From a candidate division TM6 bacterium GW2011_GWF2_30_66 (GTDB lineage Bacteria > Babelota > Babeliae > Babelales > Vermiphilaceae), in assembly GCA_000989195.1 (NCBI GenBank), contig LBOA01000004.1, forward strand, positions 1 through 50,309: DNA of 50,309 bases, read 5' to 3'. Shown piece by piece: positions 2,293 through 41,837 of this stretch. The notes beneath the pieces were generated by a model. It was not told where the DNA came from and did no database searches. It saw only the letters and a list, made by a program, of their open reading frames with translations. Every line of letters begins with the position of its first letter. Within the stretch, counting starts at the first letter, position 1. A program made the position numbers and the translations under genes.

Positions 2293-3636
2293 ATGTTTAA
2301 AAAAATAATAAATTCACTAACACTCGTAAGCTTAATACTTACAATAAATACCTATACATTTTGGGCCCCAAAAAATCCAACTTTTACAGATAAAATTGGA
2401 TACGCTACAAAAAATGTTACCAAAAAAGTTTTAAAATTAAGCAAAAAAGGCGGCACTGTTGTTGCAGCAATAATTGCAACAGGTTTTTTTGGAAAATGGT
2501 TCTTTAATCGCTTTATAGAAAAACCTTTAAATAAAGGCGGCGATGCTGCGACAGGTGCAGTTGCTGACTTTGTATCTAAAATAAGCCCTGCAACTGGCTC
2601 TTTTATAAAAAAAACATTTCTTGATAAAAAAAATAATGACGAAGATAGACTTGAAAAAGCAGGGATATCACCAGAAGATGTAACCAGAAGTTTTTCAAAT
2701 CCAGATGGCTCTATTGATAACGGAAGTATTGATGAAAAACTAAAACCATTAATAGAAATAATAGGCAACAAAAGAATGAATCCAGATAGCGATGTAAGTA
2801 TTCCTAGATGTATTATATTAGAAGGTCCATCACAAATAGGAAAATCATATTCAGCAGATTGTATATCAGAAGCATTGGGCGCAAAAAAATGCTTTCACAT
2901 CGCATCAACTTCTTTAGAAGATTCTCTTGTTGGAGGAACTAAAGACAATATACACGCAGCATTTAATACTGCAAAAAAAATAGCCACAGAAGAACACCCA
3001 TTTGTTATAATTCTTGATGAAATAGACTTCGCGGTAGATATACAAGATAAGCATGCAAAAAAAGCATTAGCTACTTTTAATGAAATACTTGATGCCATGG
3101 AAAAAGGAAATTATGAAAATGTATACTTCATAACAACTACAAACCACTGGCAAGAAATAAGAACAAATGAACCAACATTAGCAAATAGATTTATCAGAGA
3201 AGGTGGAGTAGTATCACTAAATTTACCTTCGAGAGAAAGAAGAGAATTTTGCTTAAAAAATCTAAGTAAAAAAAATAAAATAAATCTTCACGGTCAAAAA
3301 TTAAATAAAATTGCACTCAACACAGAAGGCTGTAATTTAGCAGACCTAAGCAATATAGTCAAAGGTCTTCAAACCGAAGTTTCAAATAAAAAACGAGAAT
3401 TAGAAGTAGGCGTCAATAACTTTGACATGACTAGAAATATAAACCTACAAGTTCCAAAAAGAACTTTCTTACAAAAAATTGAAACCAAACTTAAACCAAT
3501 TAAATCAATTTTCAAAAAAACAGAAAATCAAGCGCCTAATCTAATAGATATTGATAATTATGATATAAATCTTGATACTATAATATTAAAAACAACAAAG
3601 AAAGATGCAATTATTGACGAAAACGAAAACTTATAA
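2293..3636 (+). CDS. signal-bearing, membrane-anchored AAA+ ATPase (AAA-1)
   Basis: AAA+ ATPase of unknown substrate, 447 residues. An N-terminal signal or membrane segment (about 5-24) and a second hydrophobic stretch (about 54-72, VVAAIIATGFFGKWFF) precede the ATPase. Walker A is GPSQIGKS at 178-185, Walker B FVIILDEID at 237-245, sensor-1 Asn284 in TTTNHW, and a probable arginine finger is Arg299 in LANRF. Two membrane passes before the AAA module would return it to the cytoplasm, as in FtsH-like or Bcs1-like proteins. If only the signal acted, the ATPase would lie outside the cytoplasm, where ATP is not expected. No protease or other effector domain is visible. Its N-terminal half is clearly similar to that of the next protein. 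Family is certain at AAA+ level; role unknown. Confidence 0.85.
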   Translation: MFKKIINSLTLVSLILTINTYTFWAPKNPTFTDKIGYATKNVTKKVLKLSKKGGTVVAAIIATGFFGKWFFNRFIEKPLNKGGDAATGAVADFVSKISPATGSFIKKTFLDKKNNDEDRLEKAGISPEDVTRSFSNPDGSIDNGSIDEKLKPLIEIIGNKRMNPDSDVSIPRCIILEGPSQIGKSYSADCISEALGAKKCFHIASTSLEDSLVGGTKDNIHAAFNTAKKIATEEHPFVIILDEIDFAVDIQDKHAKKALATFNEILDAMEKGNYENVYFITTTNHWQEIRTNEPTLANRFIREGGVVSLNLPSRERREFCLKNLSKKNKINLHGQKLNKIALNTEGCNLADLSNIVKGLQTEVSNKKRELEVGVNNFDMTRNINLQVPKRTFLQKIETKLKPIKSIFKKTENQAPNLIDIDNYDINLDTIILKTTKKDAIIDENENL

Positions 3637-3690
3637 AAATATTTCAAAAAAGTGGGTTATAATTTTTCAGCCCACTTTTTTGAAATATTT
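3637..3690 (+). terminator. 20-bp perfect stem-loop between AAA-1 and AAA-2
   Basis: Bases 3637-3656 and 3671-3690 form a perfect 20-bp stem with a 14-base loop. The T-rich arm supplies the terminator tract. It follows the AAA-1 stop codon by one base, so AAA-2 may need its own promoter or read-through. Confidence 0.75.
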
Positions 3691-3736
3691 TGCTTAAAAT
3701 AAAAAATTAAACAAAATTAACTTCGAGGTATTTAAA

Positions 3737-5521
3737 ATGTTAAAAAAAACAAACAAATTAATTTCACTATCACTTGCAGGCTTGATGCTTACAACAAGCA
3801 TTCAACCAATTTTTGCAGCCAAACCTAAATCTTCTATCTCAATATCAAATGCTGCAGAAAAAATAGCTAAAGAAACTCTTAAATTTGCAAAAAAATTTGA
3901 TAAGGTTATTAAAATAATCGCCGCAACTGGCGTTATAGGAACAATCTTTCTTAGCCGCTTTTTTTATAAGCCAATCGACAAAGCTATGGATGATGCAGCA
4001 GGCGGAGTAGCTGGACTTGTTTCTAAAATCCCAAAAGTTGGGCCTACTGTATCTAAATTCATACAAGACTGGTTTATTTTGGATCAAAAAAAGAATGCTG
4101 ACAGAACCTTAAAGGAACAAAATATTGGAACAAGCAAGTTAAATATTAGCTTTGAAAATGACTTTCCAGAAGGAACAATAGAACCAGAAGTTCAGTCAAT
4201 AAGAGACAGAATACTTGGTGAAAAAAATAGCAAAGAACAAACAAAACTATTAGAAGAAACAATAGAAAATCTTGAGCAGGATGATGCAGTAGCAAATGCT
4301 AACGGAATAAACGAATCAAAAGAACTTATTGAAGAAATAAAAGGCTCAATAAACACTCCAAGATTTATATTACTTTATGGCCCAACACAAACAGGTAAAT
4401 CTTTTTCTGCAAAAGCGCTGGCTAAAGAATTCGGCGCAGATGAGCATATAGAATGTACAGGCGCAATGTTAAGAAACAAGTATGAAGGCGGATCTCAAGA
4501 TATAATTAGTAAACTTTTTGACAAAGCAGAAGCAATTAGCACAAAAACTAAGCCCGGCGTAATAATTATAGATGAATTTGATGGTGCAACATTTGGTAGC
4601 GAAAACGAAAAATCTAACGGATTAAGCCGAGAAATCGCACAAATGTTACAATTTAGATTAGATCCTTCTAAGTTTACGGCAGGAAAAGATTTTAAAAACA
4701 TAGTTGTTATCGCAACAACAAACTATCCTGACGATCAATCTATACCTGCTGCAATAAAATCAAGGGTTAACGCGCTTATTAAGATTGACAACCCTAACGA
4801 AGCAAAAAGAAAATGTCTTCTCAAGAGATTTTTAGAGAACGAAAAACTTGCACATACACAGCAAGATATAGATGATATTGCCGCAGATCAAAATTCAGCT
4901 GGCTGGAATGTTGCAAATCTTTCACGCTTAGTAAAAGATCTAAAATGGAGACAAACTCAAAACAAAATAGATAGAGCTAGAACGATAAATGCTCAACCAA
5001 GAAAAGCAGTAAACTTTGGCCAAAAAGCAAAACACAAAGCTAATAAATTATTCAAAAATGCAAAAAAAGTACTAGGCATGATCGCATTTTGGAATAAGAA
5101 AAAAGAAGACGTTGCACCGCAACCACAAGTAGTAGTAAATCCAGCACCAGGACAAAGATTGCTTGAAAGACTTCCTTTAGATTTTGTTGCTATAAAAGCA
5201 AAGTTTGATCTCGAAGATAAAGCTGCTAAGAAAACCGAACATTCAGAATTACAAAAACAACTTAAATTAATTAGGGATAAAAATATTAAAACAAAAACTA
5301 AAGAAATTCTGGAAGAAGAGATTCAGGAAGATGAAGCCTTAGTCGAAGAAGAAGATAATAATAGCTTGCATAATTTAAATTCAAATTTAAATATTCCTGC
5401 ATTTAAACCTAAATTTAAAAAAATTGGGGCTAAAAAACTCATGCCTAAGAATCAACAAAAGTATAAATACTCTTTGGACGACATTAATATAAAAACACAT
5501 AAACCAAACTATTCACTGTAA
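3737..5521 (+). CDS. signal-bearing, membrane-anchored AAA+ ATPase (AAA-2)
   Basis: Paralogue of AAA-1, 594 residues, unknown substrate. A clear signal-like N-terminus ends near IQPIFAAK (about 27). A hydrophobic segment (about 56-75, IIAATGVIGTIFLSRFF) is followed by a conserved Asp/Ala/Gly helix (DDAAGGVAGLVSKIP), also present in AAA-1 as GDAATGAVADFVSKI. Walker A is GPTQTGKS at 215-222, Walker B VIIIDEFD at 275-282, sensor-1 Asn329 in ATTNYP, and the likely arginine finger is Arg343 in AIKSRV. The last 190 residues are a charged tail with Pro/Val- and Glu-rich stretches, absent from AAA-1. The start ATG follows a weak GAGGT. It lies in a cluster of related exported proteins, which suggests a joint envelope function. 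Confidence 0.85.
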   Translation: MLKKTNKLISLSLAGLMLTTSIQPIFAAKPKSSISISNAAEKIAKETLKFAKKFDKVIKIIAATGVIGTIFLSRFFYKPIDKAMDDAAGGVAGLVSKIPKVGPTVSKFIQDWFILDQKKNADRTLKEQNIGTSKLNISFENDFPEGTIEPEVQSIRDRILGEKNSKEQTKLLEETIENLEQDDAVANANGINESKELIEEIKGSINTPRFILLYGPTQTGKSFSAKALAKEFGADEHIECTGAMLRNKYEGGSQDIISKLFDKAEAISTKTKPGVIIIDEFDGATFGSENEKSNGLSREIAQMLQFRLDPSKFTAGKDFKNIVVIATTNYPDDQSIPAAIKSRVNALIKIDNPNEAKRKCLLKRFLENEKLAHTQQDIDDIAADQNSAGWNVANLSRLVKDLKWRQTQNKIDRARTINAQPRKAVNFGQKAKHKANKLFKNAKKVLGMIAFWNKKKEDVAPQPQVVVNPAPGQRLLERLPLDFVAIKAKFDLEDKAAKKTEHSELQKQLKLIRDKNIKTKTKEILEEEIQEDEALVEEEDNNSLHNLNSNLNIPAFKPKFKKIGAKKLMPKNQQKYKYSLDDINIKTHKPNYSL

Positions 5522-5528
5522 ACAAACT

Positions 5529-5560
5529 AAGTAAGGGTTGAAAATTCTCAACCCTTACTT
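5529..5560 (+). terminator. 13-bp perfect hairpin after AAA-2
   Basis: AAGTAAGGGTTGA (5529-5541) pairs perfectly with TCAACCCTTACTT (5548-5560) over a 6-base loop. There is no T tract after it, so it may act as an mRNA-stabilising hairpin or a weak terminator before the next small gene. Confidence 0.55.
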
Positions 5561-5591
5561 AAAATTAAAATAAAATAGAGGTTGAAAAATT

Positions 5592-6065
5592 ATGAAAAAA
5601 ATAAAAATTCTCTCACTAACACTTGCAAGTCTTTTGCTAGTACAAACAACAGGCACGAGCTGCTTTTTTAGTAAGCTAGGCTCAATATTTTCAACAAAAA
5701 ATATTACAAAACCTGTTAAAACTAAAAGTTTTAAACTTAAAAAGCTTGTCTGGCCTACAATTATAGTCACAGCTATTGTTGCACTTTATTTCGCTACAAA
5801 AAAAAGTGGCCGAGCAGATGGATCAGTAGATAGAGAAAAATCCGGCGCAAGAATAAAAACTATTAAAGAAGTAAAAGCTGAAGAAGAAGCCTTTAATCTT
5901 GAAAATCTCTACAAAAATTTTAAAAATAATTTAAGTATATTATCAAAAAAAATATTTGGTGAAAATTTTAATACTTCTAGCGCAACAAAAACCAACAAAA
6001 AAGAAAATGAAAGCAAAAAAACTACAATAATTAATAGCCGTATTGTAAAAAAAGATAAAAAATAA
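5592..6065 (+). CDS. small membrane protein of unknown function, last gene of AAA+ cluster
   Basis: Not recognised, 157 residues. An N-terminal signal-like segment (MKKIKILSLTLASLLLVQTTG) is followed by a second hydrophobic segment at about 55-71 (LVWPTIIVTAIVALYFA), then a Lys/Glu-rich charged tail. The two-segment plan matches the N-terminal anchors of the AAA+ proteins just upstream, although it has no ATPase domain. GAGG (5577-5580) precedes the ATG with 11 bases. It is probably a membrane partner of the neighbouring ATPases, which is inferred only from position and topology. Confidence 0.65.
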   Translation: MKKIKILSLTLASLLLVQTTGTSCFFSKLGSIFSTKNITKPVKTKSFKLKKLVWPTIIVTAIVALYFATKKSGRADGSVDREKSGARIKTIKEVKAEEEAFNLENLYKNFKNNLSILSKKIFGENFNTSSATKTNKKENESKKTTIINSRIVKKDKK

Positions 6066-6107
6066 ACAAAAAAAATAAAATAACTATTACAAATTAACAA
6101 GAAAAAA

Positions 6108-6137
6108 TTGCCTTTATATACACAAACTCTTTACAAT
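6108..6137 (+). promoter_or_regulatory. possible promoter for the atpD operon
   Basis: TTGCCT (6108-6113) and TACAAT (6132-6137) are spaced by 18 bases and lie about 85 bases upstream of atpD in an otherwise gene-free gap. The match is fair, not strong. Confidence 0.4.
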
Positions 6138-6214
6138 ATATAAATCTTAAATTAGCATTATAAAATAAGAGATTTATAAAGTAATTGTAATGTCATTTCA
6201 CCTGCAGAATATAA

Positions 6215-7654
<1,440 letters not shown>

Positions 7655-7656
7655 AC

Positions 7657-7690
7657 TTGCCCCTTCGATTAACTCAGGGCGAACGGGAAG
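7657..7690 (-). repeat. REP-like palindromic core filling the atpD-atpC gap
   Basis: The spacer starts two bases after the atpD stop and runs into the atpC ribosome-binding site. Read on the minus strand it matches the G+C-rich core of the 142-bp repeat at 10625-10651 and 22847-22873, with about two mismatches over 27 bases against the first. It contains the arms CCCTTCGA and TCAGGG, which can fold weakly. From memory, palindromes of the form CCCTTCGA...TCAGGGCGAACGG are common interspersed repeats in several Gram-negative groups; I could not check this. Confidence 0.6.
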
Positions 7691-7693
7691 AAT

Positions 7694-7942
7694 ATGAAAT
7701 TAAAAATTATTAGTCCAGAAAATGAACAAGAATTTGAAGTTGCATGGTTAGATATAGAAACTTCAGCAGGAAACTTTGTAGTCCTAGAAGGCCATGTACC
7801 AATGATTGTAACTATTGACCCAAATAAACAATTTAGTTTTTGTCTTAAAAACGGAAAACAAGAGATTGTTGCTTGCGATGGCGGGATTGTTGAAATTAAC
7901 AGAGATTTAGTAAAAATACTTTTAAGCTCAGAACCTAGATAA
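7694..7942 (+). CDS. atpC: F1 ATP synthase epsilon subunit, short form
   Basis: Epsilon subunit of the F1 central stalk, linking rotation to the c-ring. The 82 residues match only the N-terminal beta-sandwich: MKLKIISPE, the GNFVVLEGHVPMI loop, and CDGGIVEINRD. The usual protein has about 130-140 residues, with a C-terminal two-helix domain that inhibits ATP hydrolysis; that domain is missing here and no continuation is seen in other frames. Similar short epsilon subunits exist in other phyla. GGAAG precedes the ATG. The gene follows atpD across the repeat core and lies four bases before the HerA-like gene. Confidence 0.88.
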   Translation: MKLKIISPENEQEFEVAWLDIETSAGNFVVLEGHVPMIVTIDPNKQFSFCLKNGKQEIVACDGGIVEINRDLVKILLSSEPR

Positions 7943-7946
7943 AAAA

Positions 7947-9560
7947 ATGCGCAAAAAACTTGGCCACATAATTTCCGGATCACTAATTGAAGGTTTTGTT
8001 CTCAGAATAAATCCAGAAATACAGCTGGAATCTATAAAAACTGGAAAATTTGTATCAATAGACGGAAAACAACATAAATTTTTTTCATTAATAACAGATT
8101 TAAAACTAGAAGTAACAAGCCAAGATATTCTATTATTTCCACCAGATCAAGATGACCAAGAAAGTCTTTTAAATTCGTTTTTAGAAAAAAAAGATATTTA
8201 TGCAACAGCTAATCTAAAACCTATGCTCATGCTGGCAAAAGACGATAAACCATCACCAGTAAAAACTATACCACCACATTTTTCACAAGTATACGAAGCA
8301 AATAATAAGGATGTCGCATTAATTTTTGGCGATGAAAACGATCCTAGCAAAAAATTTTTCAATATCGGCACCCCACTTGATATGACAACACCAGTTTGCT
8401 TAAATTTGGAAAAATTAACCGAAAGAAGCAATGGCATATTTGGAAAAACTGGAACAGGAAAAACATTTTTAACAAGATTGGTATTAGCTGGTTTAATAAA
8501 AAATGAAAAAGCTGTTAACATAATTTTTGATATGCACAGTGAGTACGGCTTACAAGCCAGAAAAGAGGGGGCCGGAGAATCTTTTGTAAAAGGCTTAAAA
8601 ACTTTATTTGGAAACAAAGTTGCAATATTTTCTTTGGATCCAGAATCTACCAGACGCAGAGGTGGCTGCCCAGATTATGAAATTAAACTTGACTATAGCG
8701 CAATAAACATAGAAGACATCTTGTCACTACAAGATGAACTAAATTTACACTCGACAGCGTTAGAAGCAGCTTATTTAATCGCTGCAAAATATAAAAGAAA
8801 TTGGCTACAAGCGCTACTAGAATCTGGAGAAAATTTAAAAGAATTCGCCCAAGAGCTCGGAGCACACCCAGAATCTATAGCAGCCCTTTATAGAAAATTA
8901 AAAAAAATAGAAAAATTACCGTTTTTTACACCTAATGTAACTGGTAAAAAAGAATTATCAGCTGTAGATCAGATGATAGAATATTTAGATAAAGGCATAA
9001 ATGTAATAGTTGAATTTGGCAATCATACATCAACATTTTGTTATTTATTAATCGCAAATATAATCACAAGAAGAATTCACTCGAAATACGTAGAAAAAAC
9101 AGAAATATTTTTAGGCTCTCAAAAAAAAGAGGACGAACCTAAAAAACTTATGATCACCATAGAAGAAGCGCATAAATTTTTAAATCCAACGGCTGCAAAA
9201 CAGACCATTTTTGGTATAATTGCGCGTGAAATGAGAAAATATTATGTTTCACTACTTGTTGTCGACCAACGCCCTTCTGGAATAGACCCTGAAATATTAT
9301 CTCAAATTGGTACAAAAATTGTAGCACAATTAAATGACGAAAGAGACATTCAAGCTGTTTTAAACGGCGTAAACGGCGCATCAAATCTAAGATCTATTTT
9401 AGCATCTTTAGATAGTAAAAAGCAGGCCTTACTCTTGGGCCATGCTCTTACAATGCCAGTTGTCATAGAAACTAGAGAATATGGCCAAGATTTTTATCGC
9501 GCCATGAGTTCAAACTTAACCCCCCTAGATATCAATAATGCAATAAACGAATTATTTTAA
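7947..9560 (+). CDS. HerA/DUF87-type ATPase
   Basis: FtsK/HerA-superfamily ATPase, 537 residues, probably cytoplasmic. An N-terminal beta-rich region like the HerA HAS-barrel (about 1-120) comes first. Walker A is GKTGTGKT at 166-173, and the Walker B-like motif MITIEEAHKF has Glu406/Glu407. A conserved DQRPSGIDPEILSQ segment and a late Arg-containing region follow, as in HerA. Archaeal HerA works with the NurA nuclease in end resection; no NurA partner is visible here. Bacterial relatives also act in DNA translocation or defence. It is translationally linked to atpC by a 4-base gap, an odd pairing with ATP synthase. The fold is confident; the cellular role is open. Confidence 0.85.
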   Translation: MRKKLGHIISGSLIEGFVLRINPEIQLESIKTGKFVSIDGKQHKFFSLITDLKLEVTSQDILLFPPDQDDQESLLNSFLEKKDIYATANLKPMLMLAKDDKPSPVKTIPPHFSQVYEANNKDVALIFGDENDPSKKFFNIGTPLDMTTPVCLNLEKLTERSNGIFGKTGTGKTFLTRLVLAGLIKNEKAVNIIFDMHSEYGLQARKEGAGESFVKGLKTLFGNKVAIFSLDPESTRRRGGCPDYEIKLDYSAINIEDILSLQDELNLHSTALEAAYLIAAKYKRNWLQALLESGENLKEFAQELGAHPESIAALYRKLKKIEKLPFFTPNVTGKKELSAVDQMIEYLDKGINVIVEFGNHTSTFCYLLIANIITRRIHSKYVEKTEIFLGSQKKEDEPKKLMITIEEAHKFLNPTAAKQTIFGIIAREMRKYYVSLLVVDQRPSGIDPEILSQIGTKIVAQLNDERDIQAVLNGVNGASNLRSILASLDSKKQALLLGHALTMPVVIETREYGQDFYRAMSSNLTPLDINNAINELF

Positions 9561-9604
9561 GTATCCTTTTATATAAACAAATAAACATAAATTTTCTAAT
9601 TTTA

Positions 9605-9634
9605 TTGCTTAGTTAAAATTACACCTGATAATAT
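9605..9634 (+). promoter_or_regulatory. possible promoter for the exported protein at 9676
   Basis: TTGCTT (9605-9610) and TAATAT (9629-9634) with 18-base spacing. A strong Shine-Dalgarno (AGGGGAG, about 9660-9667) follows before the ATG at 9676. Confidence 0.4.
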
Positions 9635-9675
9635 AAAAATATAAATAATTTAGGTTTTCAAAGGGGAGATGGGGC

Positions 9676-10434
9676 ATGAAAAAATCAGTATATTTAATAA
9701 ATATATTTTTATTTAATTTATCAGCATTTAATCTCGCGCTAGCAATAGAAACAAAATTACCAGATAATCCAAATAATTCATCCAATCAAGCTAATAAAAA
9801 TGGCCATAACTACACGTTAAGCGAAAAAGAAGCACGCGATAAGATTTATAACACTATAGGTAAAAAATTTGGAAATATAAAAAAATATTCTATAAGTCTA
9901 ATTTGGCCATTTATAACAGAAAAAATAGTCGAAGGAGTAAAGCTTACAAATAGCGAGCTAAGAGAAATAAAAAATATCGCAGAAGAAAATTTAAAATCAA
10001 GCGCTAACTCTAAAAGCGTATTAGCAAGAAAAGCATTTATAACATATGTAACACAAGTAGTAAGAAAGCCAATACAACAAACTACGATAAAATGGAAAGA
10101 AATTGAAACCTTAGTGCCAGTAACAAATTTTAAAGACGTAGAAAGAAAAAGATATGATGAAAATAAATTAAAACACAGCATTTATAGTAAAATAGTTGAA
10201 TCGATAAGTAAAAAAAGTTACGATTATACTCTAGAAAAAACTGGAAAAGCTAATATAGCCGAAACAATCCAAAAATATATTGCCAAAGATTTGTGGCAAA
10301 AAATAAAATCAGAAGGCACTTCTCTTCAAGAATTTTTAGGCAAACTTAGATGGAAAAAATTAGACCAATTAATTGATAATATCATTAAGCGTGGCTCTCC
10401 GGATAAGAACCAGCCTAACAAACCTAATAAGTGA
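9676..10434 (+). CDS. exported protein of unknown function
   Basis: Not recognised. The 252-residue product has a typical N-terminal signal (MKKSVYLINIFLFNLSAFNLALA, cleavage near residue 23) and an Asn-rich linker. A mainly helical, Lys/Glu-rich body has no cysteines and no further membrane segment, and the C-terminus is Asn/Pro/Lys-rich (PDKNQPNKPNK). It is probably periplasmic or secreted. The strong AGGGGAG ribosome-binding site suggests good expression. A strong terminator follows, so it is monocistronic. Confidence 0.75.
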   Translation: MKKSVYLINIFLFNLSAFNLALAIETKLPDNPNNSSNQANKNGHNYTLSEKEARDKIYNTIGKKFGNIKKYSISLIWPFITEKIVEGVKLTNSELREIKNIAEENLKSSANSKSVLARKAFITYVTQVVRKPIQQTTIKWKEIETLVPVTNFKDVERKRYDENKLKHSIYSKIVESISKKSYDYTLEKTGKANIAETIQKYIAKDLWQKIKSEGTSLQEFLGKLRWKKLDQLIDNIIKRGSPDKNQPNKPNK

Positions 10435-10458
10435 TACTTTATGTATAAGCCAAACTTT

Positions 10459-10486
10459 ACCACCTCCTTTTGGAGGTGGTTTTTTA
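10459..10486 (+). terminator. rho-independent terminator after 9676-10434
   Basis: ACCACCTCC (10459-10467) pairs perfectly with GGAGGTGGT (10472-10480) over a TTTT loop, followed by TTTTT. A textbook intrinsic terminator. Confidence 0.92.
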
Positions 10487-10492
10487 TTTAAA

Positions 10493-10733
10493 TATTATAA
10501 TCCCAAAATCTTCTTAGTCTCAGGAGTCAATAAACCCCTAATTTATATCATTATTATATCATTTGCCGGTAAAAAATATAACACTGTTTTATTAAATAAC
10601 GCAAGCTTGAAAATACTCACTTCTCCCGTTCGCCCCGAGTTAATCGAGGGGTCGAGGGACTTGTATTTTTGTTAAAATTTATGTAGGCAAATAGTATTAC
10701 CTGCATATTATGAGCATAACTTTCTAGTGTGCC
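10493..10733 (-). pseudogene. relic copy of the nfo 3' end, split by a repeat element
   Basis: Bases 10493-10543 repeat 10781-10831 of intact nfo with one mismatch. Bases 10696-10733 repeat the next part (from 10829 on) with about two mismatches, then similarity stops. Together this is a direct duplicate of roughly the last 86 bp of nfo, including its stop codon, lying immediately downstream of the intact gene. The 142-bp repeat plus a short flank sits exactly inside the duplicate. It may be the remnant of a second tandem nfo gene or a partial duplication. The rest of this roughly 350-bp gap holds the upstream terminator and a small CCCC-GGGG hairpin near 10750-10761. Confidence 0.85.
10556..10697. 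repeat. 142-bp inverted-repeat-ended element, copy A
   Basis: Same length as copy B at 22778-22919, with six differences (about 96% identical). The ends are ATATCATTTGCC (10556-10567) and GGCAAATAGTAT (10686-10697), an inverted repeat with two mismatches. The centre has the G+C-rich core CCCGTTCGCCCCGAG...CGAGGGG. There is no coding capacity. A flanking 11-bp partial duplication of the left end (ATATCATTATT) lies at 10545-10555. The host sequence (nfo relic) resumes at ATT on the right, suggesting at most a 3-bp target duplication. MITE-like or REP-like. Confidence 0.85.
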
Positions 10734-10782
10734 AGCAAGATCCTTTATTGCCCCGCAGGGGTAATATCACCCTTTTTTATTA

Positions 10783-11682
10783 TTATAATCCCAAAATCTT
10801 CTTAGTCTCAGGAGTTAATAAACCCCTAATTACCTGCATATTATGAGCATAACTCTCTAATGTGCCAACTGGTGTTTCCAAAATTTTTGGTATATCAAAA
10901 AAACGCTCATCATTAAAAATATGCCTAAATGGCTCAAGACCCAATTTACCATCCCCAATTTCCTCATGCCTATCAACTTTACTTCCCAACTCTTTTTTTG
11001 AGTCATTTATATGCATTGCTTTCAAATTTTTAAGCCCAATCACATTATCAAACTCTTGTATCATGTTTTCATAGTTTTTTTTTGACCTAAAATCATACCC
11101 TGCGGCAAAAATATGACAAGTATCTAGACAAACACCCAATCTTTTTTTATTCTTGCAATGGTCAAAAATAGATGCGATTTGTTCAAATGTATGCCCAACC
11201 ACTGTACCCTGTCCAGCCATAGTTTCTATTAAAATTTTGGTATCCCCGGAACTATTTTCCAGTATTTCGTCCAAAATTCTAGATATTTGCTCTATGCATT
11301 CTTCTATACTTGACTCCAAACGCGAACCAGGATGTAAAACTAAATATTTAATTCCAAGCTCTTGGCATATTTTAAGCTCATTCTCTAGAGTTATTTTTGA
11401 CTTTTTACAAGTTGCTGCATTTGGCGAACCTATATTTATAAGATAAGAACAATGCACAACAATATCTATAATATCAGAATTTTTCCAAGCACTTTTAAAG
11501 GAAGATATTTCTTGCATTGTGATGTTTTTTATCCCCCACTGTCTATTGCTTCTGGTAAACATTGCTATAGCAGTACAGCCAATTTCTTGTCCACTCAAAA
11601 TCGCATTTTCTAACCCACCAGCTATTGACATGTGTGCACCTAAAAGCAACTGATGTTTTTTTACTTTACTCTCTTTTTCCAT
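10783..11682 (-). CDS. nfo: endonuclease IV (AP endonuclease)
   Basis: Base-excision repair enzyme that cuts DNA 5' of abasic sites; a TIM barrel with three zinc ions, 299 residues. It shows the family's metal-binding set: His in VVHCSYLINIGSP, LVLHPGS, Glu in ILIETMAGQGT, Asp/His in VCLDTCHIFAAGYD, MHINDSKK, VDRHEEIGDG and the late PKILETP. The N-terminus GAHMSIAGGLENA is canonical. AAGAG precedes the ATG, and the upstream Lys-rich MEKESKVKKH is a normal extension. It stands alone on the minus strand. The sequence downstream of its stop holds a relic duplicate of its own 3' end. Confidence 0.96.
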   Translation of the reverse strand: MEKESKVKKHQLLLGAHMSIAGGLENAILSGQEIGCTAIAMFTRSNRQWGIKNITMQEISSFKSAWKNSDIIDIVVHCSYLINIGSPNAATCKKSKITLENELKICQELGIKYLVLHPGSRLESSIEECIEQISRILDEILENSSGDTKILIETMAGQGTVVGHTFEQIASIFDHCKNKKRLGVCLDTCHIFAAGYDFRSKKNYENMIQEFDNVIGLKNLKAMHINDSKKELGSKVDRHEEIGDGKLGLEPFRHIFNDERFFDIPKILETPVGTLESYAHNMQVIRGLLTPETKKILGL

Positions 11683-11783
11683 ATTTACACTCTTTTATTT
11701 TTCAAAAATTTATAATTTTAAAAATTAAACGAACCAGATTACCTATATAAAAGTATTATATTATTCTTGAAAATTAAATACAA

Positions 11784-11821
11784 AAAAAGAGAGATCCTGT
11801 AATCACAGAATCTCTCTTTTT
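11784..11821 (-). terminator. terminator for the exported coiled-coil gene
   Basis: A 12-bp stem of AAAAAGAGAGAT (11784-11795) with ATCTCTCTTTTT (11810-11821), extended inside by TGT/ACA. It has T-rich tracts on both strands, so it could work either way. It lies 27 bases past the end of the minus-strand gene at 11848. Confidence 0.85.
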
Positions 11822-11847
11822 AATTAAAATATTTTATATTATTTTAT

Positions 11848-13752
11848 TTATTTCTTTTTTAATCTTTCAAACTCAGACGCCTCTAATTTTTTAAGTTCTT
11901 CTTCTAATTTTTTAAGCCCATCTTCTGCTATTTTAAGCCCATCTTCTGCTCTTTTAAGCTCACTTTTCTCAACATCAGACAAAGTTTCTTTCTCTTTAAG
12001 TTTTTCTACTGTAGATTTAAGTCTTTTTATTTGTTCTGTTACTCCAAACTTTTTTACACCTATCTCGCTGCGAGCCCTATTATGTGATAGTACCAGTACA
12101 TCTTCTTCAGTAAAATCCCATAAATTAGAAGTATTCAATTTACTATCTTCGTCTTTATCAATCACCTTAACTTTTTCTTTTTCTATTCCAATTGGACTTG
12201 GATTCTTCTTTTGTTGAGATTTTTTATTTTCAGCTATATTTTTTACTGTTTCATCCGTCCCTTTTTCTTTAGTCCTCTTTTGATATTCTTCAAACTTCTT
12301 TTTAAGTTCGTCCGTAAAACTTACTTCGAATTTCGGCTTAACTTTCAATGATTTATCTTTGACAATTGTCGATACTTCTTTTAACTTTTTTCCACTTTCT
12401 TTTGTTTTAGTATATTGATCAAGTTCTTCAATACCCGGAGCATCTAAATCTTCTTCATCTTTAATAACTTCACCTTCTTCTTCTTCTGAAGAATCGTCCA
12501 TTGTTATTACATTTTTCTTAGATTCTTTTTTCTTAAATTCTTCTCCTTCAACTTCTTCAGGCTTAACTTCCTTTGGCACTTCAAATACTACTTTTTCTTC
12601 TCGGCCTAAGCCCATTTTTCTTACTAACCCATTTATTCTGTCGTAATAACTACGCATCCTTTTTGAAAAGCTCGCGAATAATTTAACATTTAAGTCTTCT
12701 TTTTTTACGCCAAACGCTAACTTAAATGGCTCGGTTTTTTTTACAGATGATTGGGAAACTATTTTCTGAGATTTCTGAGATTCAGGAGTCACAATAGTTT
12801 TTACGGTAAACTCTTTTCCTTCTTTGATAAGGATTTCTTTATCATGCAAATCAGAAATATTTACAATAGACTTACCTAATTCGCTAATTAAACGCTCTAA
12901 TTTTATCTTTAAATCTACTAGATATTTTCTAGATTTTTTCTCATAATTTTCAACATAATATAAAAATTTATCAAGATCACCTGTTCTTTCAAAAGAACTT
13001 TTTACCTTAGAAGTACGATCTGTAAGTTCTTTAAATCCTCTACGTGTTAAAATTTTAGTTCTCTCTAAAAAACCAATTGAATTCCATTTAGAATCTTCTT
13101 CATCACGCAATTTTCTCTCTTCAGCATTTTCCTCATCTATTTTCTCTTTTTCTTTTCTCTCAATTATTTTTGACATTTCAACAGATCGTTCTCTTATAAA
13201 CTCTTCAATTTTCTCAAAACTAGACTTAATATCTATAATTTTTTTAATATCATTAATTATTTTTGAAATATCATTATCATCTGCTGTAATTGTCATTAAA
13301 CCTCTAAATACGCCTTTACTGCTAAATATATATTGATCAAAGCTATTTGCATCATTAAAAACTATCATTTTACTAGGTGAAAAAACCCCATCAACATGAT
13401 TTATAACAACCAAAATATCTTTATTTTTACTTATAATATCTTTTAAATCTATCTTATTAAAAATACCTCCAAAATATTCATATTGCTTTCCCTTCGCAAC
13501 CTTTTGTGCATCAAAAATAAACTTTTCACAAAAAGAAACTTCCAAATCTCTCGCAACTGTATCTATTGGGATAGCTAATGCATCAAATGAACCTACCACT
13601 CTATCTTCAGTAGCATCTTTATCTTGAAGACTATAAATTAACCTTGTTTTGACAGTCTCATTAGTTAAATTTAAGAAAATAACATCACCGCATACTGCGT
13701 TTTTTATAAAAAAACTAGTTAAAAAAATTACAGCTATTTTTAGCTTATTCAT
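11848..13752 (-). CDS. large exported Lys/Glu-rich coiled-coil protein
   Basis: Not recognised, 634 residues from the ATG at 13752, chosen because GGAGG lies seven bases before it; an in-frame upstream ATG at 13812 has no such site and would bury the signal peptide. The signal is MNKLKIAVIFLTSFF...VCG. The next 100 residues (VIFLNLTNETVKTRL...) look beta-rich and resemble the N-terminus of the protein encoded at 14606. The remaining 450 residues are highly charged and helical with several predicted coiled coils, an acidic patch (DDSSEEEEGEVIKDEEDLD) and a C-terminal imperfect 7-residue repeat (KRAEDGL, KIAEDGL). It is probably periplasmic or surface-exposed; role unknown. Confidence 0.75.
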   Translation of the reverse strand: MNKLKIAVIFLTSFFIKNAVCGDVIFLNLTNETVKTRLIYSLQDKDATEDRVVGSFDALAIPIDTVARDLEVSFCEKFIFDAQKVAKGKQYEYFGGIFNKIDLKDIISKNKDILVVINHVDGVFSPSKMIVFNDANSFDQYIFSSKGVFRGLMTITADDNDISKIINDIKKIIDIKSSFEKIEEFIRERSVEMSKIIERKEKEKIDEENAEERKLRDEEDSKWNSIGFLERTKILTRRGFKELTDRTSKVKSSFERTGDLDKFLYYVENYEKKSRKYLVDLKIKLERLISELGKSIVNISDLHDKEILIKEGKEFTVKTIVTPESQKSQKIVSQSSVKKTEPFKLAFGVKKEDLNVKLFASFSKRMRSYYDRINGLVRKMGLGREEKVVFEVPKEVKPEEVEGEEFKKKESKKNVITMDDSSEEEEGEVIKDEEDLDAPGIEELDQYTKTKESGKKLKEVSTIVKDKSLKVKPKFEVSFTDELKKKFEEYQKRTKEKGTDETVKNIAENKKSQQKKNPSPIGIEKEKVKVIDKDEDSKLNTSNLWDFTEEDVLVLSHNRARSEIGVKKFGVTEQIKRLKSTVEKLKEKETLSDVEKSELKRAEDGLKIAEDGLKKLEEELKKLEASEFERLKKK

Positions 13753-13867
13753 ATTCGATCCTCCAATATTAGTATTAATATTATTACATTTATTTTTAAA
13801 AATTATCTTCATTTAATCCCCCATTTATAAGCACTAACTTATAAACACTATATACCTATATATTACA

Positions 13868-13896
13868 ACTATAGCAAAATAGCAAATTAAAGTCAA
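13868..13896 (-). promoter_or_regulatory. strong sigma70-type promoter for the 13752-11848 gene
   Basis: On the minus strand TTGACT (13896-13891), 17 bases, then TATAGT (13873-13868). Transcription would start near 13861, leaving a leader of about 110 bases before the ATG at 13752. Confidence 0.65.
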
Positions 13897-13917
13897 GCAT
13901 AATAAAATAATAAATTC

Positions 13918-13931
13918 AAATAGCGCTATTT
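13918..13931. promoter_or_regulatory. 14-bp perfect palindrome in a divergent gap
   Basis: AAATAGCGCTATTT is perfectly self-complementary and lies upstream of both divergent genes. A half copy, AATAGCG, recurs about 30 bases to the right. It could be an operator for a dimeric regulator; no regulator is encoded nearby. The rest of this roughly 300-base gap is A+T-rich with nothing else evident. Confidence 0.35.
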
Positions 13932-14051
13932 TGTCAAAAAAAACCAAATAATAGCGTGTTTTTCTAAAAAACTTGCTAAAAAAATAATATTATTTATTCT
14001 TTACTTAATTAATTAAATATTTACTTTAAAGCCTTTAATCGTGAGCATTGT

Positions 14052-14600
14052 ATGAAAAATATAAAATCCCTTATATTTATCTCGCTTTTATCAATTACAA
14101 CCTCAAACAAAGCTTATTTCGAAAATTCAACCATAGAAGATATTAAACCATTATCATTATTAATAAAAAATAAATATCAATTAACTTACAAAGTAGAACG
14201 TATCGACGCTAAAAAAGAATATTCTCAAAATAAAATAATTTACGACCACCATATTGCCACTCTAGAACTATCAAAAGAAGAAGGTAAAATAAAACCATTT
14301 TTTCATGCCTACATATGGCTTGACTACGAAAATTCTAACTACGAAAATAATAAAAACGACAAAAATATAATACTTTTAAGCGAATTTAACGACAAAAGTA
14401 TATACAAAGCAAAAATGCTTTTATATAAGTATTGGCTGAAAAAAAGCGACTACTTGGAAAAAAACAACATAAATAAAAAACTATTTAGTCCTATGATAAA
14501 AAAACAAATAAAAAAATATAAAATCTTAAGCACAGAGCCATTAAAAATAAGAAAAAAGGCTAACAAACAATACAGTAACGTCAAAATAAATTTTAGCTAA
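14052..14600 (+). CDS. exported protein of unknown function
   Basis: Not recognised, 182 residues. A signal-like start (MKNIKSLIFISLLSITTSNKA) is followed by a basic, Asn/Lys/Tyr-rich body. There are no cysteines, no repeats and no second membrane segment. The ribosome-binding site is weak (GTGAG about seven bases before the ATG). Its stop codon lies five bases from the end of the convergent metallophosphatase gene and no terminator separates them, so the two transcripts probably overlap. Amino-acid bias is strong even for this genome, which can reflect low constraint. Confidence 0.6.
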   Translation: MKNIKSLIFISLLSITTSNKAYFENSTIEDIKPLSLLIKNKYQLTYKVERIDAKKEYSQNKIIYDHHIATLELSKEEGKIKPFFHAYIWLDYENSNYENNKNDKNIILLSEFNDKSIYKAKMLLYKYWLKKSDYLEKNNINKKLFSPMIKKQIKKYKILSTEPLKIRKKANKQYSNVKINFS

Positions 14601-14605
14601 TAAAT

Positions 14606-16933
14606 TTATTTTTTTAAATCAGGCAAAATTTTTACAATATCCATAACCCATAAATTAGAATTTTCTTCAAACCTTAAAAGCGAATAAATATCATAATTAT
14701 ATTTCAAAATATTACCATAAGAAAAATTAGTATTCTTAGCCAATATAGGAGAAACTAAAAGCGTCCAAACAGAATATTGTGGTATTTTTATAGTCTTACC
14801 TGTTAAACAATCAAATTGCTCTTTATCATTAAGCCAAAGCCCATAAGCACCTGCGTGATTTAAAAGTAACTTCATCATAATTCCTGAATGCTGATGACCT
14901 CTGATTATAGCACTAACTTGATATTTTTCTTTTTTGCTGCACAAGTCAAGATATTGCCTCGTAAAATCTTTTCCAAACTCTGCAGAACTTCCCCCTCTAG
15001 CGCTAGATTTTGCAAAAGTATTTTTATCCAATATAAAATCATTAAATAAAAACCCTGGAATTACACCATTTTCAATTAATTCTGAAGAAACCTCTGCTTG
15101 CAAACCAGCTTGACCTTCTTTTTTACCTATTACGCTCTCTATAAATTTTTCTTCGCCACCCAACCAAGCCACACCCAACTCATTTATTTTTTCAGAAAGA
15201 ACATCACTTGTACTTCCCAGTAAATTATTTGGATCAAATCTAGGCTCTATACCACCATGAACAAACATCATATAATTTACAAAATTATTGCTTTTCACCC
15301 CCAAAAACAATACTGAAGGCATAGCATTATAAATTGGATTTATTATTCTAATAAAATCTAACCCTGTTAAACCAAGTTTTTTTTCTACCTCCATAAAAAA
15401 ACCACCAAATATATCTTTTCTAAGATTCATTATTATATTTTCATGATTGCCTCGTATTAACTCAACCTGATCAGGATTTTCCACCCTAAGTCTCATTGCT
15501 AAATACAAAACCTCTAGCCCATCAGGACCTCTATCTACAAAATCACCAAGAAATACTATATAAAAATCTTTTTTTATTATCTTAAATGGATTATCTTTAT
15601 CTGTATATCCACGCTTTGCAAGATCCTTTATAAGCTCTAACATAGCATATTTATCGCCATGAAAATCTGCGTGCACAGCAACAGCTGATGCTGCAGGAAT
15701 TATTCTTTTGGCCGCATAATAACCATTATTTTTATCTGATTTATAAGTTTGTAAAAATTTTTCTTTAACTAATTCAAGCTCTTTTCTTGCAAATTCTGGA
15801 CTATGTACTAAATTTTTAAACCCTAAATCATCATCTAAAATAAATTTTTTTGATTCTTTTTTTACAGGCTGCTCATTTATTATAATTTTCTTTTTTTTGT
15901 TTTCTATTTCTTTATGCTCTATATTTTCTAAATTCTCACCATCTAAAACAAACTCATAATTATTTAACTCTAACTCTAAATTTTCAATATATGATTTATG
16001 AAAATTTTCAAATAAATTAAGCGAGCTGTTTTTATCAAAGTAACTTTCTTTAACTTTTAGAGATTTATTTTTATCAAAATAACTTTTAAGACTATTACTA
16101 ATAAATTGTATATTTTTATTCAACTCTATCGAACCAGAAAATTGTTTAAGCCCATTATAATAATTTTTAAGATTTTTATAATTACTTAAAATATCTATTA
16201 ATAACTTTTCAAGATCAGATTTTTCTATTTTCTCATCTTTTAAAATAGACTTTAAATAATCTCTATCAGAAGTTATCCAAAAAGACTTTACCTTGGACTC
16301 TGCTTTTTTATAAATACCTTTAAAATATCCAGAAAATCCCAAATCGTTTATTTTATTATCTTGATTTTGTTTATGTTCTAATTTTTTATACTTTTCTGTG
16401 ATTGATGAGATTTTAAATCTATTTAATGCGTCAATACCATTTATTACTTTTATAATATTCTCAGCAAACTTTAAATTATAAGAAAAAAACATAACCCCAA
16501 TTAAATTATTATCTCTATTTATAGCCTGACCTAATTTAACTCCATTTTCATCTTTTAAAAACAATAATTTATTATTACTTCCCTCTTTTCCATCAAAAAT
16601 AACAATCAAAATATCACTTTTATTTATATTATTTAATTCTATTTTTTTGAACTTATTTTCATCTCTAAAAAACTTACTAGAAATCCAAGATTTAAACGAT
16701 TCATTTAAAAATGAAAACTCAAAATTTCGACTATTTTCTTCTATTTTCACTATTTCATACCCAAATGGGAATATATATCCAACATTTTCAATTACTTTAC
16801 CATCAAATTCTTCTAAACTAAATTCTGTTTTTATTTTTTCTTGTGTAAAATTTAAAACAACAATATTAGTCGCTAATAAGTCTTTAATAGAAAAAAACAA
16901 TACAAAAATCAAAACAATTTTTAGCTTATTCAT
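14606..16933 (-). CDS. exported protein with C-terminal metallophosphatase domain
   Basis: Calcineurin-like phosphoesterase joined to a long N-terminal region, 775 residues from the ATG at 16933 (GGAA upstream). An upstream in-frame ATG at 17014 would place a second hydrophobic stretch before the signal and is less likely. The signal is MNKLKIVLIFVLFFSIKDLLA. Residues to about 110 resemble the N-terminus of the 11848 protein. A helical region follows to about 400. The phosphatase motifs are in order: ADFHGDKY (D-x-H, about 420), GDFVDRG (about 463), RGNHE (about 493), VHGG, and GHQHSG (about 678). All metal ligands seem present, so it should be active, resembling PPP-family Ser/Thr phosphatases. 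An exported enzyme of this type could act on periplasmic or host phosphoproteins; the target is unknown. Confidence 0.85.
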   Translation of the reverse strand: MNKLKIVLIFVLFFSIKDLLATNIVVLNFTQEKIKTEFSLEEFDGKVIENVGYIFPFGYEIVKIEENSRNFEFSFLNESFKSWISSKFFRDENKFKKIELNNINKSDILIVIFDGKEGSNNKLLFLKDENGVKLGQAINRDNNLIGVMFFSYNLKFAENIIKVINGIDALNRFKISSITEKYKKLEHKQNQDNKINDLGFSGYFKGIYKKAESKVKSFWITSDRDYLKSILKDEKIEKSDLEKLLIDILSNYKNLKNYYNGLKQFSGSIELNKNIQFISNSLKSYFDKNKSLKVKESYFDKNSSLNLFENFHKSYIENLELELNNYEFVLDGENLENIEHKEIENKKKKIIINEQPVKKESKKFILDDDLGFKNLVHSPEFARKELELVKEKFLQTYKSDKNNGYYAAKRIIPAASAVAVHADFHGDKYAMLELIKDLAKRGYTDKDNPFKIIKKDFYIVFLGDFVDRGPDGLEVLYLAMRLRVENPDQVELIRGNHENIIMNLRKDIFGGFFMEVEKKLGLTGLDFIRIINPIYNAMPSVLFLGVKSNNFVNYMMFVHGGIEPRFDPNNLLGSTSDVLSEKINELGVAWLGGEEKFIESVIGKKEGQAGLQAEVSSELIENGVIPGFLFNDFILDKNTFAKSSARGGSSAEFGKDFTRQYLDLCSKKEKYQVSAIIRGHQHSGIMMKLLLNHAGAYGLWLNDKEQFDCLTGKTIKIPQYSVWTLLVSPILAKNTNFSYGNILKYNYDIYSLLRFEENSNLWVMDIVKILPDLKK

Positions 16934-17256: not shown

Positions 17257-19371
17257 ATGCGTTTCATAAAAAACAAAATTTTTATATTATTTATTTTTCT
17301 TGTTTTGATTGACAATATTACTAACGCATCGATAGAATACAGAACTGGAAATGCAAGCGCTAATAGCGATAAAACCAAACTAGAAAGAATATCTGAGTAT
17401 ACATTTTCAGGAAGATTTAAGCCTGGAGACTCTTTTTACGGAAAAAATATAACATATTTAAATGATAATGAATTTTTTGATCAATTTTTTTATATTCGAC
17501 ATACTCTTGATTTAAACCTTAAATATTCATATGGATTTGCTGGTCAAGATGGAAAAATAGATAAAAACCCTGCAGCACAAATGTATTTTTCTATGAGAAA
17601 CAAGCCAAAATGGGGCTCCTTAGAAATAATCCCTACAACTAAATCTGAATCAAAAGTTCTTGATCACGTTGGGCTAGAGCACCAACACTTTATACCAAGA
17701 CACATGTTTTGGATAAGAGAAGCATGGCTAGAATTTAACTTAAATGATATTTCTGGAATAAAATTTAATGATAAAAAGCAAACATTTAAGCTCGGAGCAT
17801 TCCCATTCTTCCTTGGCCGAGGCATTGCTCTTGGTGACGCTTATGCGGTAGGAGCTGATTACTTGGGTTTTTATTCGGACAGTCTCGTAGACCAATATGC
17901 ATTTGGATTAAAACTTTCTGGTGAGATTGTCAAAAATAAATTATCTTACGATATTTATGGCGCATTATTAAATAATAAGTCTTCAAGCACTGGAGAAACT
18001 AATGCCAAAGTATCTGGCCAAGAATATGGCAAACTAAATTGTCCAGAGAGAGGCTTTGGCGTTGTAAATACTGTAGTGGCTGGAAGACTAAATATCACTG
18101 CAATAGATAATAAAGAACAGGGCAAACTAACATTTGAACCATATGTGATGGTAAACACAGATAAAGAACAATATATAGAATTTCTAGGCGACACAACAAG
18201 CAAATTGGGAACTGTAGGCTTGGCTTGTGAATATAATGGCAATAGATTTGAATTTGGTTTTGATGGCGCTGTTAATATTGGCAATCAATATGTAAAAGGC
18301 TGGGATAAAAACGTTATAGAATTACAAAATAGAAATGGTCGCCTATGCTTTGCAAACAGCCACGTTTATGTTGGAGTACAACCTTGCTCAGATACAGCTC
18401 CTTCAGATTTAAGCTTATATAAAGCATTAAACGCTGGAACAACTGAAGTAACAAATTATACTGTCGATGGAAGCTCGGTCACAACAACAAATACAATAAA
18501 CAAAGTTGGAAAAGACTCAAAAACATTAATCACAAATGCAGACAGAGACTGCAAACTTAACGGCCAGCTAATAGGAACAGTTTCAGGTTATTCAGATACA
18601 GTTGAAATGCCTGTACCTGTAGCTCCTGCATTAAAAGATCAATTTTATAATGCAAAAGATAGATTTAGAGATCCGTATAAAAACAAATATAAAGGCTTTA
18701 TGTTTGTAACTGACGGCGCAATAAACTTCTTAAATAAAGATTTAAAAGTTGCTATGACAGCAGGTTATGCATCTGGTGATGCTGATCCTAATTTTGATCG
18801 CATAGACGGAGACTACAGAGGATTTATCGGCCTACAAGAAGCATACTCTGGCGTAAGAGTAAATAGTGCATTTTATATGGGTGGCGCTGGAAAACTAAAA
18901 AGACCTATAGATACACTATCTAGCGAAGAGAAACCTGGAGAATTTGCAGAAAACGTAGCTGGATTTACTGATCTTGCATTCGTTGGTGGCGGCGTAAAGT
19001 GGGTACCAAAAAGAATAAAAAAAAGATTTAATCTAAATCCAAACGTTCTTGGATACTGGCAAACATGGGCTGATAGAAAGTTTGACCTTACTTCTGGAAA
19101 ACTTTTACCAGAAAGAGCTAGAAGATTTTTAGGTACCGAATTTAACGTATTTATGGAAAAAAATCTTATAGAAAATCTCAAAGTGTTTGCTATAGCATCA
19201 GTATTTGTTCCTGGATCACACTATGATGATGTAAAAGGTAAACCAATAAATAAAGATCAACAAAGACGCATTGACCAATTAGATAGAACTGGAAATGACG
19301 ATGATTGCATTCCAAACGTTGGAACAGACCCTGCTTATGCATTCAATATTGGTCTTGAGTATTTCTTCTAA
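17257..19371 (+). CDS. outer-membrane beta-barrel protein (porin-like)
   Basis: Predicted outer-membrane barrel, 704 residues. A signal peptide (MRFIKNKIFILFIFLVLIDNITNA) is followed by alternating short polar and aromatic beta segments, for example LKYSYGFAGQ, QTFKLGAFPFFLGRG and VDQYAFGLKLSG. The C-terminus AFNIGLEYFF ends in Phe, the usual barrel-insertion signal. The region around FFLGRGIALGDAYAVG is reminiscent of alginate-export-type porins, but I would not assign a substrate. Four cysteines fall in a central loop region (about 340-450), which may be disulphide-bonded. AAGGG precedes the ATG. It is monocistronic with its own promoter, leader and terminator, and probably a major envelope channel. 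Confidence 0.75.
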   Translation: MRFIKNKIFILFIFLVLIDNITNASIEYRTGNASANSDKTKLERISEYTFSGRFKPGDSFYGKNITYLNDNEFFDQFFYIRHTLDLNLKYSYGFAGQDGKIDKNPAAQMYFSMRNKPKWGSLEIIPTTKSESKVLDHVGLEHQHFIPRHMFWIREAWLEFNLNDISGIKFNDKKQTFKLGAFPFFLGRGIALGDAYAVGADYLGFYSDSLVDQYAFGLKLSGEIVKNKLSYDIYGALLNNKSSSTGETNAKVSGQEYGKLNCPERGFGVVNTVVAGRLNITAIDNKEQGKLTFEPYVMVNTDKEQYIEFLGDTTSKLGTVGLACEYNGNRFEFGFDGAVNIGNQYVKGWDKNVIELQNRNGRLCFANSHVYVGVQPCSDTAPSDLSLYKALNAGTTEVTNYTVDGSSVTTTNTINKVGKDSKTLITNADRDCKLNGQLIGTVSGYSDTVEMPVPVAPALKDQFYNAKDRFRDPYKNKYKGFMFVTDGAINFLNKDLKVAMTAGYASGDADPNFDRIDGDYRGFIGLQEAYSGVRVNSAFYMGGAGKLKRPIDTLSSEEKPGEFAENVAGFTDLAFVGGGVKWVPKRIKKRFNLNPNVLGYWQTWADRKFDLTSGKLLPERARRFLGTEFNVFMEKNLIENLKVFAIASVFVPGSHYDDVKGKPINKDQQRRIDQLDRTGNDDDCIPNVGTDPAYAFNIGLEYFF

Positions 19372-35228: not shown

Positions 35229-35289
35229 CAAATATTCCTCTGTTCCTAATTTCTAAATTGTCTAAAACTATATAAATTGTCTATATCGC

Positions 35290-35856
35290 CTATACTGCAG
35301 CTTCTGTTTTAAGCAAAAGCGTAGATATTTTTAAATGAACATCTATCGCATCAGATTTATTTTGAGACTTTTGAATCTCTAATAAATTTATATTAATTCT
35401 TTTTGTTTTTTCAAGTTCTTCTAAAAGAGCACATAACTGCGCCATATCCATACCATCAAGATCAATAGCAAATTCTAGCTCTCTGTATTTATCATCAATC
35501 TCTTTTTCTGTAACATTGCCATCTTCTCTCCTATACTCAAATAAATTAAACTTTTTAAGCAAATCTTCAAAATAACCTTTAATCTGAAAATCTGTTCCTT
35601 TTTTTAGCATGTCATCAGCTTCTTTTTGCTGAATTTCAACAATTTTTGACTCAGAAATAAGCCTTTTAACAATATCACGTCTTTTATCATTAATTTCTTC
35701 TATCTGCTGAGTATATGTACTTACCTGACTGTAATAACTATAAATCATAAAGGAAATAATAATAAATATTAAACCGAACAATAATCCTATATATTTATAA
35801 AAATCTTTCACATCTAAGTCTTGTATAAAATCTGTAATTTTTTTAAAAAACTCCAT
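35290..35856 (-). CDS. PilO/GspM-like inner-membrane platform protein
   Basis: 188 residues with one N-terminal membrane segment (about 21-41, LLFGLIFIIISFMIYSYYS), a coiled-coil stalk (QIEEINDKRRDIVKRLISE) and a small alpha/beta C-terminal domain (REDGNVTEKEIDDKYRELEFAIDLDGMDMAQLCALLEELEKT). That layout matches PilO and GspM, which pair with PilN or GspL in the periplasm. AGGA precedes the ATG. It is encoded 9 bases after the GspL-like gene. Confidence 0.82.
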   Translation of the reverse strand: MEFFKKITDFIQDLDVKDFYKYIGLLFGLIFIIISFMIYSYYSQVSTYTQQIEEINDKRRDIVKRLISESKIVEIQQKEADDMLKKGTDFQIKGYFEDLLKKFNLFEYRREDGNVTEKEIDDKYRELEFAIDLDGMDMAQLCALLEELEKTKRININLLEIQKSQNKSDAIDVHLKISTLLLKTEAAV

Positions 35857-35865
35857 CTGTAAATC

Positions 35866-37488: not shown

Positions 37489-37521
37489 CAACACAACCCT
37501 ATCATAAAACCGCTTTATTAA

Positions 37522-40572: not shown

Positions 40573-40578
40573 ATTTCC

Positions 40579-41697: not shown

Positions 41698-41837
41698 AAG
41701 GCGTTCCCTTTTTTTATTTATTCTTCTACACAATACCCATAGTAACAATATTTTGTCAAGAATAAATTAAAAATTTATAGCGAACTAATTTTTCATGTCA
41801 AAACTTTTAAATAAAATCGACTTTTTATAAATCTCTA

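Follow-up and report, generated by a model that had tools for sequence, protein, structure and literature searches.

Two predicted exported proteins with similar N-terminal regions, one ending in a PP1-like phosphatase domain, in a candidate division TM6 bacterium

Two genes with a similar front end

We examined a 50,309-nucleotide stretch (the window; contig C4, LBOA01000004.1) from the draft genome of candidate division TM6 bacterium GW2011_GWF2_30_66 (1.11 Mb, 53 contigs, 94.7% complete), in which two nearby minus-strand genes, A (13752-11848) and B (16933-14606), encode predicted exported proteins with similar N-terminal regions. The aspartyl-tRNA synthetase of this genome places it in the phylum Dependentiae, with 58% identity to that of a Babeliales bacterium, 64% and 58% over fragments of a Dependentiae metagenome-assembled genome, and 47% to those of two genomes that carry Verrucomicrobia-type loci; one TM6 genome yielded a paralogue only. 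Both A and B open with MNKLKI followed by a hydrophobic stretch. Counted from this start A has 634 amino acids and B has 775, with the open reading frames (ORFs) reaching to 13812 and 17014, respectively, and a GGAGG stretch was observed 5' of the ATG of A at 13752. An initial annotation of this DNA had placed the stop of A at 11848 and the MNKLKI start of B at 16933, and both positions were correct. Judged by eye, the signal peptides occupy 13690-13752 in A (MNKLKI..AVC) and 16871-16933 in B (MNKLKI..LLA), and each is followed by a front domain predicted to be a beta-sandwich, which covers residues 22 to about 151 in A (13300-13689) and 22 to about 138 in B (16520-16870). The two proteins had been described as differing in their C-terminal parts, and this held on both sides. 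A continues as a long charged helical region (11851-13275; K/R 0.22-0.23, D/E 0.18-0.25), the helix starting within the A model and the region matching no Pfam family, and B continues with a long helix (16337-16495; model residues 126-178) and ends in a PP1-like phosphatase domain (14609-15721).

The likeness between A and B extends over the signal peptide and the start of the mature protein, about 75 residues, which bears out the initial claim of a shared signal peptide and N-terminal part. The N-[LF]-T-x-E-x-[VI]-K-T motif was also found as described (NLTNETVKT in A, NFTQEKIKT in B). With the signal peptide included, the N-terminal 190 residues gave a BLOSUM62 local score of 133, reached by 0 of 2000 shuffles (79 at most), while the mature parts gave 82, again reached by none of 2000 (72 at most). 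Residues 22-110 of A against 22-105 of B, a block that aligns starting at the first mature residues, scored 56, and 0 of 2000 block shuffles reached this value. The same score was reached by none of 2641 segments from other loci with either query and by none of 623 segments from the own genome with A as query; with B as query a single own-genome segment exceeded it, a UvrC-like stretch scoring 74 out of register. At the DNA level the A-B score for the mature block was reached by 0 of 81 and 1 of 81 other own-genome genes. The mature N-terminal parts of A and B are significantly alike by these sequence comparisons. Unadjusted BLASTP of mature A against mature B returned a match at E 1.5e-6, which, being spread over 464 columns at 23% identity, looks like common composition.

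The signal peptide is shared at the DNA level with one further gene, T (C30:2641-3585), which lies on a different contig and encodes an exported protein of 314 amino acids with no phosphatase. Over the first 66 bases the pairwise DNA scores were 31 for A-B, 31 for A-T and 22 for B-T, values that none of 81 other own-genome genes reached when their mechanical ORF starts were taken as start sites. A degenerate DNA pattern for MNKLKI matched the genome exactly three times, at A, B and T, and a reversed control matched nowhere. In the 5' untranslated DNA, A, B and T shared no more with each other than other genes do, except weakly for B-T (2-3 of 80). A profile of A and B in which T was not a row recovered T from the own genome at E 3e-5, the signal peptide counting towards this score. 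The mature part of T fared differently, as its score was reached by 423 of 2000 block shuffles against A and 163 of 2000 against B, and hhalign gave a probability of 0.4%; for B against the whole mature T, 25 of 2000 plain shuffles reached the score. T is best described as having the signal peptide in common with A and B, with a mature part not detectably related to theirs.

A weaker echo of the A/B motif had been proposed for the protein at 46543 (46543-47103, minus strand). This was not borne out, as shuffles reached its score in 949 of 2000 cases against A and 1295 of 2000 against B, and with hhalign no better than for a control protein we rejected it as a third family member. Compared with the front parts of T, the same protein scored 42, above all non-self matches among 623 segments, a score reached by 135 of 2000 shuffles. 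On the contig of T (locus L056) we also observed two exported near neighbours on the plus strand, at 253-2595 (780 amino acids) and 6750-7148 (132 amino acids), which differ in length and have a common front end, AVQTDPKEFEAKRK, after the signal peptide, a second case like that of A and B.

Predicted fold and range of the front domain

The front domains were modelled with AlphaFold2 on three-row alignments, the same rows serving for A and B. Both models (A, m9b70eca09a08; B, m6d2eecc28b32) place the elements in the same order, with strands, a short helix, more strands and a long helix. Because they were built from the same rows the two models are not independent, and their agreement is weak support. 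Models that differed between the two N-terminal regions had been named as the outcome that would speak against a shared domain; what we obtained for A and B alike was a predicted beta-sandwich with a long helix after it. In second-look structure alignments both models fell on the same kinds of beta-sandwich, namely pneumolysin domain 4, transthyretin, PUD-1 and HGSNAT. Against 5cr8 (cholesterol-dependent cytolysin (CDC)/pneumolysin domain 4) the B model gave Z 7.8 over 90 residues (root-mean-square deviation (rmsd) 2.4) and the A model Z 5.5 over 93 residues (rmsd 3.0), at 8-10% identity and at a Z level that unrelated folds often reach. Small beta-sandwiches (CDC domain 4, transthyretin, TssJ, PUD-1) resemble one or both of these low-confidence models in arrangement, and with neither model did Foldseek return a match at E 0.001 or better. 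We did not take the weak PDB structure matches as evidence of kinship.

The front domain matched no known family in Pfam, NCBIfam, PHROGs or the PDB sequences. A beta-sandwich is the likeliest fold according to the models, which agrees with one half of the earlier suggestion of a new beta-sandwich family; the other half, a wider family, found no support, since the profile search of the own genome matched only A, B and T. Across 101 genomes of the class Babeliae the front module was credibly found in the own genome only, and the whole of A was likewise found in 1 of 101, its own. The single profile match outside (genome G018, E 0.009) lies antisense to an OmpA/Pal-like ORF and was rejected.

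The phosphatase domain of B and its relatives

Residues 405-775 of B matched PF00149 with 52.9 bits (cut-off 21.5; E 8e-14), and a phmmer search of the PDB with B matched BSU1, RdgC, PP1 and PP5. A profile of the family matched the PDB entries for BSU1 at E 6e-25 and PP1 at E 4e-24. The PPP motif set comprises GDxHG, GDxxDRG, GNHE, HGG and RxHQ. We located these in B as ADFHGD (DFHGD at 15667-15653), in which the first G of GDxHG is replaced by A and the D and H are kept, GDFVDRG (15547-15527), RGNHE (15454-15440), HGG (from 15259) and RGHQH (14902-14888). In the loop region between motifs 4 and 5, where the EukaryoticPPP-like group has an aspartate and the second clamp arginine, FNDF and ARGGSSAEFG occur in the right order, with a profile alignment there worth about 0 bits. 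The metal-binding residues are intact, and the motifs together with the significant profile match identify B as a predicted member of the PPP family. The complete PPP-type phosphatase first proposed for B is thus borne out by PF00149, the motifs and the PDB matches.

Relatives of this phosphatase were observed in 72 of the 101 class genomes (51 of the 68 good ones), with up to 12 matches per genome, and each of 28 scanned full-length relatives matched Metallophos. In many of them, as judged by eye, a hydrophobic stretch at the start precedes an F-x-x-W-x-x-AC-x-x-LP-like motif, which B does not have. A scan of contigs with the phosphatase alignment found 588 stretches, of which 329 were confirmed; among the best 80 of these, relatives in named genomes were listed first for Verrucomicrobia, with Planctomycetes, Babeliales, TM6 and one member of the Parachlamydiaceae, and then mostly for archaea. 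Judged from sequence spread, the PP1-like, predicted exported phosphatase family is old and widespread in the class Babeliae of the phylum Dependentiae.

The initial annotation held that one of the two paralogues had gained a metallophosphatase, and this is probably the reverse of what happened. In a quick tree of 46 of 77 deduplicated catalytic domains, which contains several long branches and for which SH-aLRT (the Shimodaira-Hasegawa-like approximate likelihood ratio test) was the sole support measure, the four own-genome members cluster and B is sister to a paralogue on contig C19 (SH-aLRT 93). The catalytic domain of the C19 protein begins at residue 178, and neither this gene nor the two on contig C12 carries the front module. 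Among the 77 domains that of B begins unusually deep in its protein, at ORF residue 432, against 456 in one other protein and 272 or earlier in the remainder. Since the phosphatase is widespread, the module was found in the own genome alone, and the nearest paralogue of B is without it, the phosphatase gene B most likely gained the front module, on the sequence record at hand.

A separate arrangement involving phosphatases was observed on contig C2 (20000-36000, locus L048), where two channel-like genes are interleaved at 2513-13783 with four genes for proteins of 736-790 amino acids. The first channel-like gene matches GLIC (PDB phmmer E 2e-5) and the second is its 44% relative. Each of the four joins a Peripla_BP_6 domain to a membrane anchor recognised by eye; three also gave a Metallophos match, and the fourth is degenerate. 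Relatives of the channel were found in 63 of the 101 class genomes. A phosphatase match lay 246-582 bp downstream on the same strand in 40 of 48 checked channel matches (34 genomes), a count that is no rate, the 48 having been picked mainly because of shared contigs. Peripla_BP_6 was also present in three of the four long phosphatase proteins that we scanned in other genomes. This conserved pairing of a channel gene with a putative receptor-phosphatase gene looks more remarkable than the case of A and B, and no paper joining Dependentiae with a ligand-gated ion channel was found in the literature searched.

Proposed origin and role

The explanation we favour, at a probability of about one half, is that B is a Sec-exported PP1-like phosphatase onto whose gene a 5' module was copied, that its action is placed by this front end, and that A is its companion. 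The copied part would comprise the signal peptide, the small beta-sandwich and the long helix, and the copying would have occurred in the own lineage by recombination or tandem duplication. Sec would carry A and B across the inner membrane, after which they may leave the cell through a type II system. The beta-sandwich and helix might place or dimerise the proteins at the cell surface or on a host structure, where B would dephosphorylate host or envelope phosphoproteins and A, with the same front end, would act as a non-enzymatic structural or binding partner. Secretion genes in the window, the phylum's intracellular life in protists and the WipB example lead us to take B as an exported, front-placed phosphatase with A as companion. 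Genes for type II secretion or a type IV pilus were observed at 32343-41748 (minus strand), including two secretins, T2SSC with PDZ and a PilM-like gene; for Babela massiliensis no secretion system other than type II is reported (PMC4378268). In Legionella, WipB is a PPP-family phosphatase of modular build, in which a separate domain sets the location in the host cell (PMC5572681). By analogy B would be like it in outline, with a PPP-type domain and a non-catalytic domain in a presumed intracellular bacterium; WipB, as that paper describes it, differs in its Dot/Icm type IV translocation and C-terminal targeting domain, where in B the signal peptide is of Sec type and the extra domain is N-terminal. 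It is very doubtful, on a bolder extension, that the front cassette of signal peptide, beta-sandwich and helix is passed from gene to gene as a prefabricated unit for export and placement, with A a partner or decoy of B at the same host site.

Several observations weigh against the favoured explanation. The likeness of the mature parts is modest, the stretch of about residues 100-200 lacked significance when taken by itself (its score was reached in 206 of 2000 block shuffles), composition-adjusted BLASTP and phmmer found no match between full mature A and B, and the UvrC-like chance stretch outscored A against B (74 to 56). Both front-domain models are of low confidence (pLDDT, the predicted local distance difference test, 49.2 for A and 58.6 overall for B, with 67-81 in the first 50 or so residues of B), and the narrow range of the module may reflect fast change and not recent origin. 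That gene copying shared only the signal peptide, the mature likeness being composition plus a common type of small beta-sandwich, would fit the adjusted searches, the score of 74 and the case of T, which shares signal-peptide DNA and not the mature part. We nevertheless consider this distinctly unlikely, because for the first mature block neither 2000 block shuffles nor 2641 natural segments reached the A-B score, the alignment begins with the first mature residues, and almost none of the other genes reached the DNA score.

Loss of the phosphatase in A is a possible alternative to gain of the module by B. A would then descend from a B-like gene whose phosphatase part was lost or replaced after tandem duplication, the module having been present already in the ancestor of B. 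The two genes are near each other on the same strand and their alignment keeps its register beyond the first block without being significant there, yet the paralogues nearest to B in the own genome are without the module, the tail of A has no phosphatase trace, and T has the shared signal peptide and no phosphatase, so that we regard this derivation as unlikely. The role proposed for B may also lie elsewhere, in the bacterium's own envelope (e.g. phosphate scavenging or periplasmic signalling) and not on a host. Relatives in Verrucomicrobia and Planctomycetes, many with an N-terminal hydrophobic stretch among the matches listed, indicate that the family does not require life inside a host; the isolates of the phylum described in PMC6561590, however, live as parasites inside protist cells and have large secretomes, and we hold an envelope role to be somewhat improbable.

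Kerk et al. 2021 (PMC8249667) describe the PPP family by six motifs, and B resembles the EukaryoticPPP-like bacterial phosphatases treated there in having GDxxDRG, GNHE, HGG and RxHQ, its best PDB sequence matches being the eukaryotic enzymes BSU1, RdgC and PP1. Unlike those bacterial enzymes B is predicted to be exported and carries a long additional module at its front. The main text of that paper does not contain the words Verrucomicrobia, Planctomycetes or Dependentiae. Dependentiae secrete many proteins without an annotated function, and signal sequences are reported on 44% of the genes of Chromulinavorax destructans (PMC6561590). Our results suggest reuse of a single front module on two exported proteins that otherwise differ, and the same front end with a differing payload is one way in which such secretomes may be built. 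PP1-like phosphatases in 72 of 101 class genomes, many with signal-peptide-like starts, further suggest that extracytoplasmic protein dephosphorylation is a common trait of the group. In the literature searched we found no description of a shared front end with differing payload or of class-wide PP1-like phosphatases.

Other features of the window were observed around A and B. A terminator-like hairpin of 17 pairs lies 3' of A (11784-11821, minus strand), one of 2 such in the region where 1.7 are expected from shuffles. Between A and B, on the opposite strand, an ORF of 182 amino acids (14052-14600) has a signal-peptide-like start and matched no family in Pfam and NCBIfam-type profile scans. 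Adjoining B on the plus strand is a gene for an exported protein of 704 amino acids (17257-19371) with a weak match to an autotransporter barrel (NCBIfam E 0.0023). Two plus-strand genes (3737-5521 and 25722-27665) encode AAA ATPase proteins with signal-peptide-like starts by eye; exported ATPases would be odd, and AAA-Ulp1 fusions with predicted signal peptides are described for B. massiliensis (PMC4378268).

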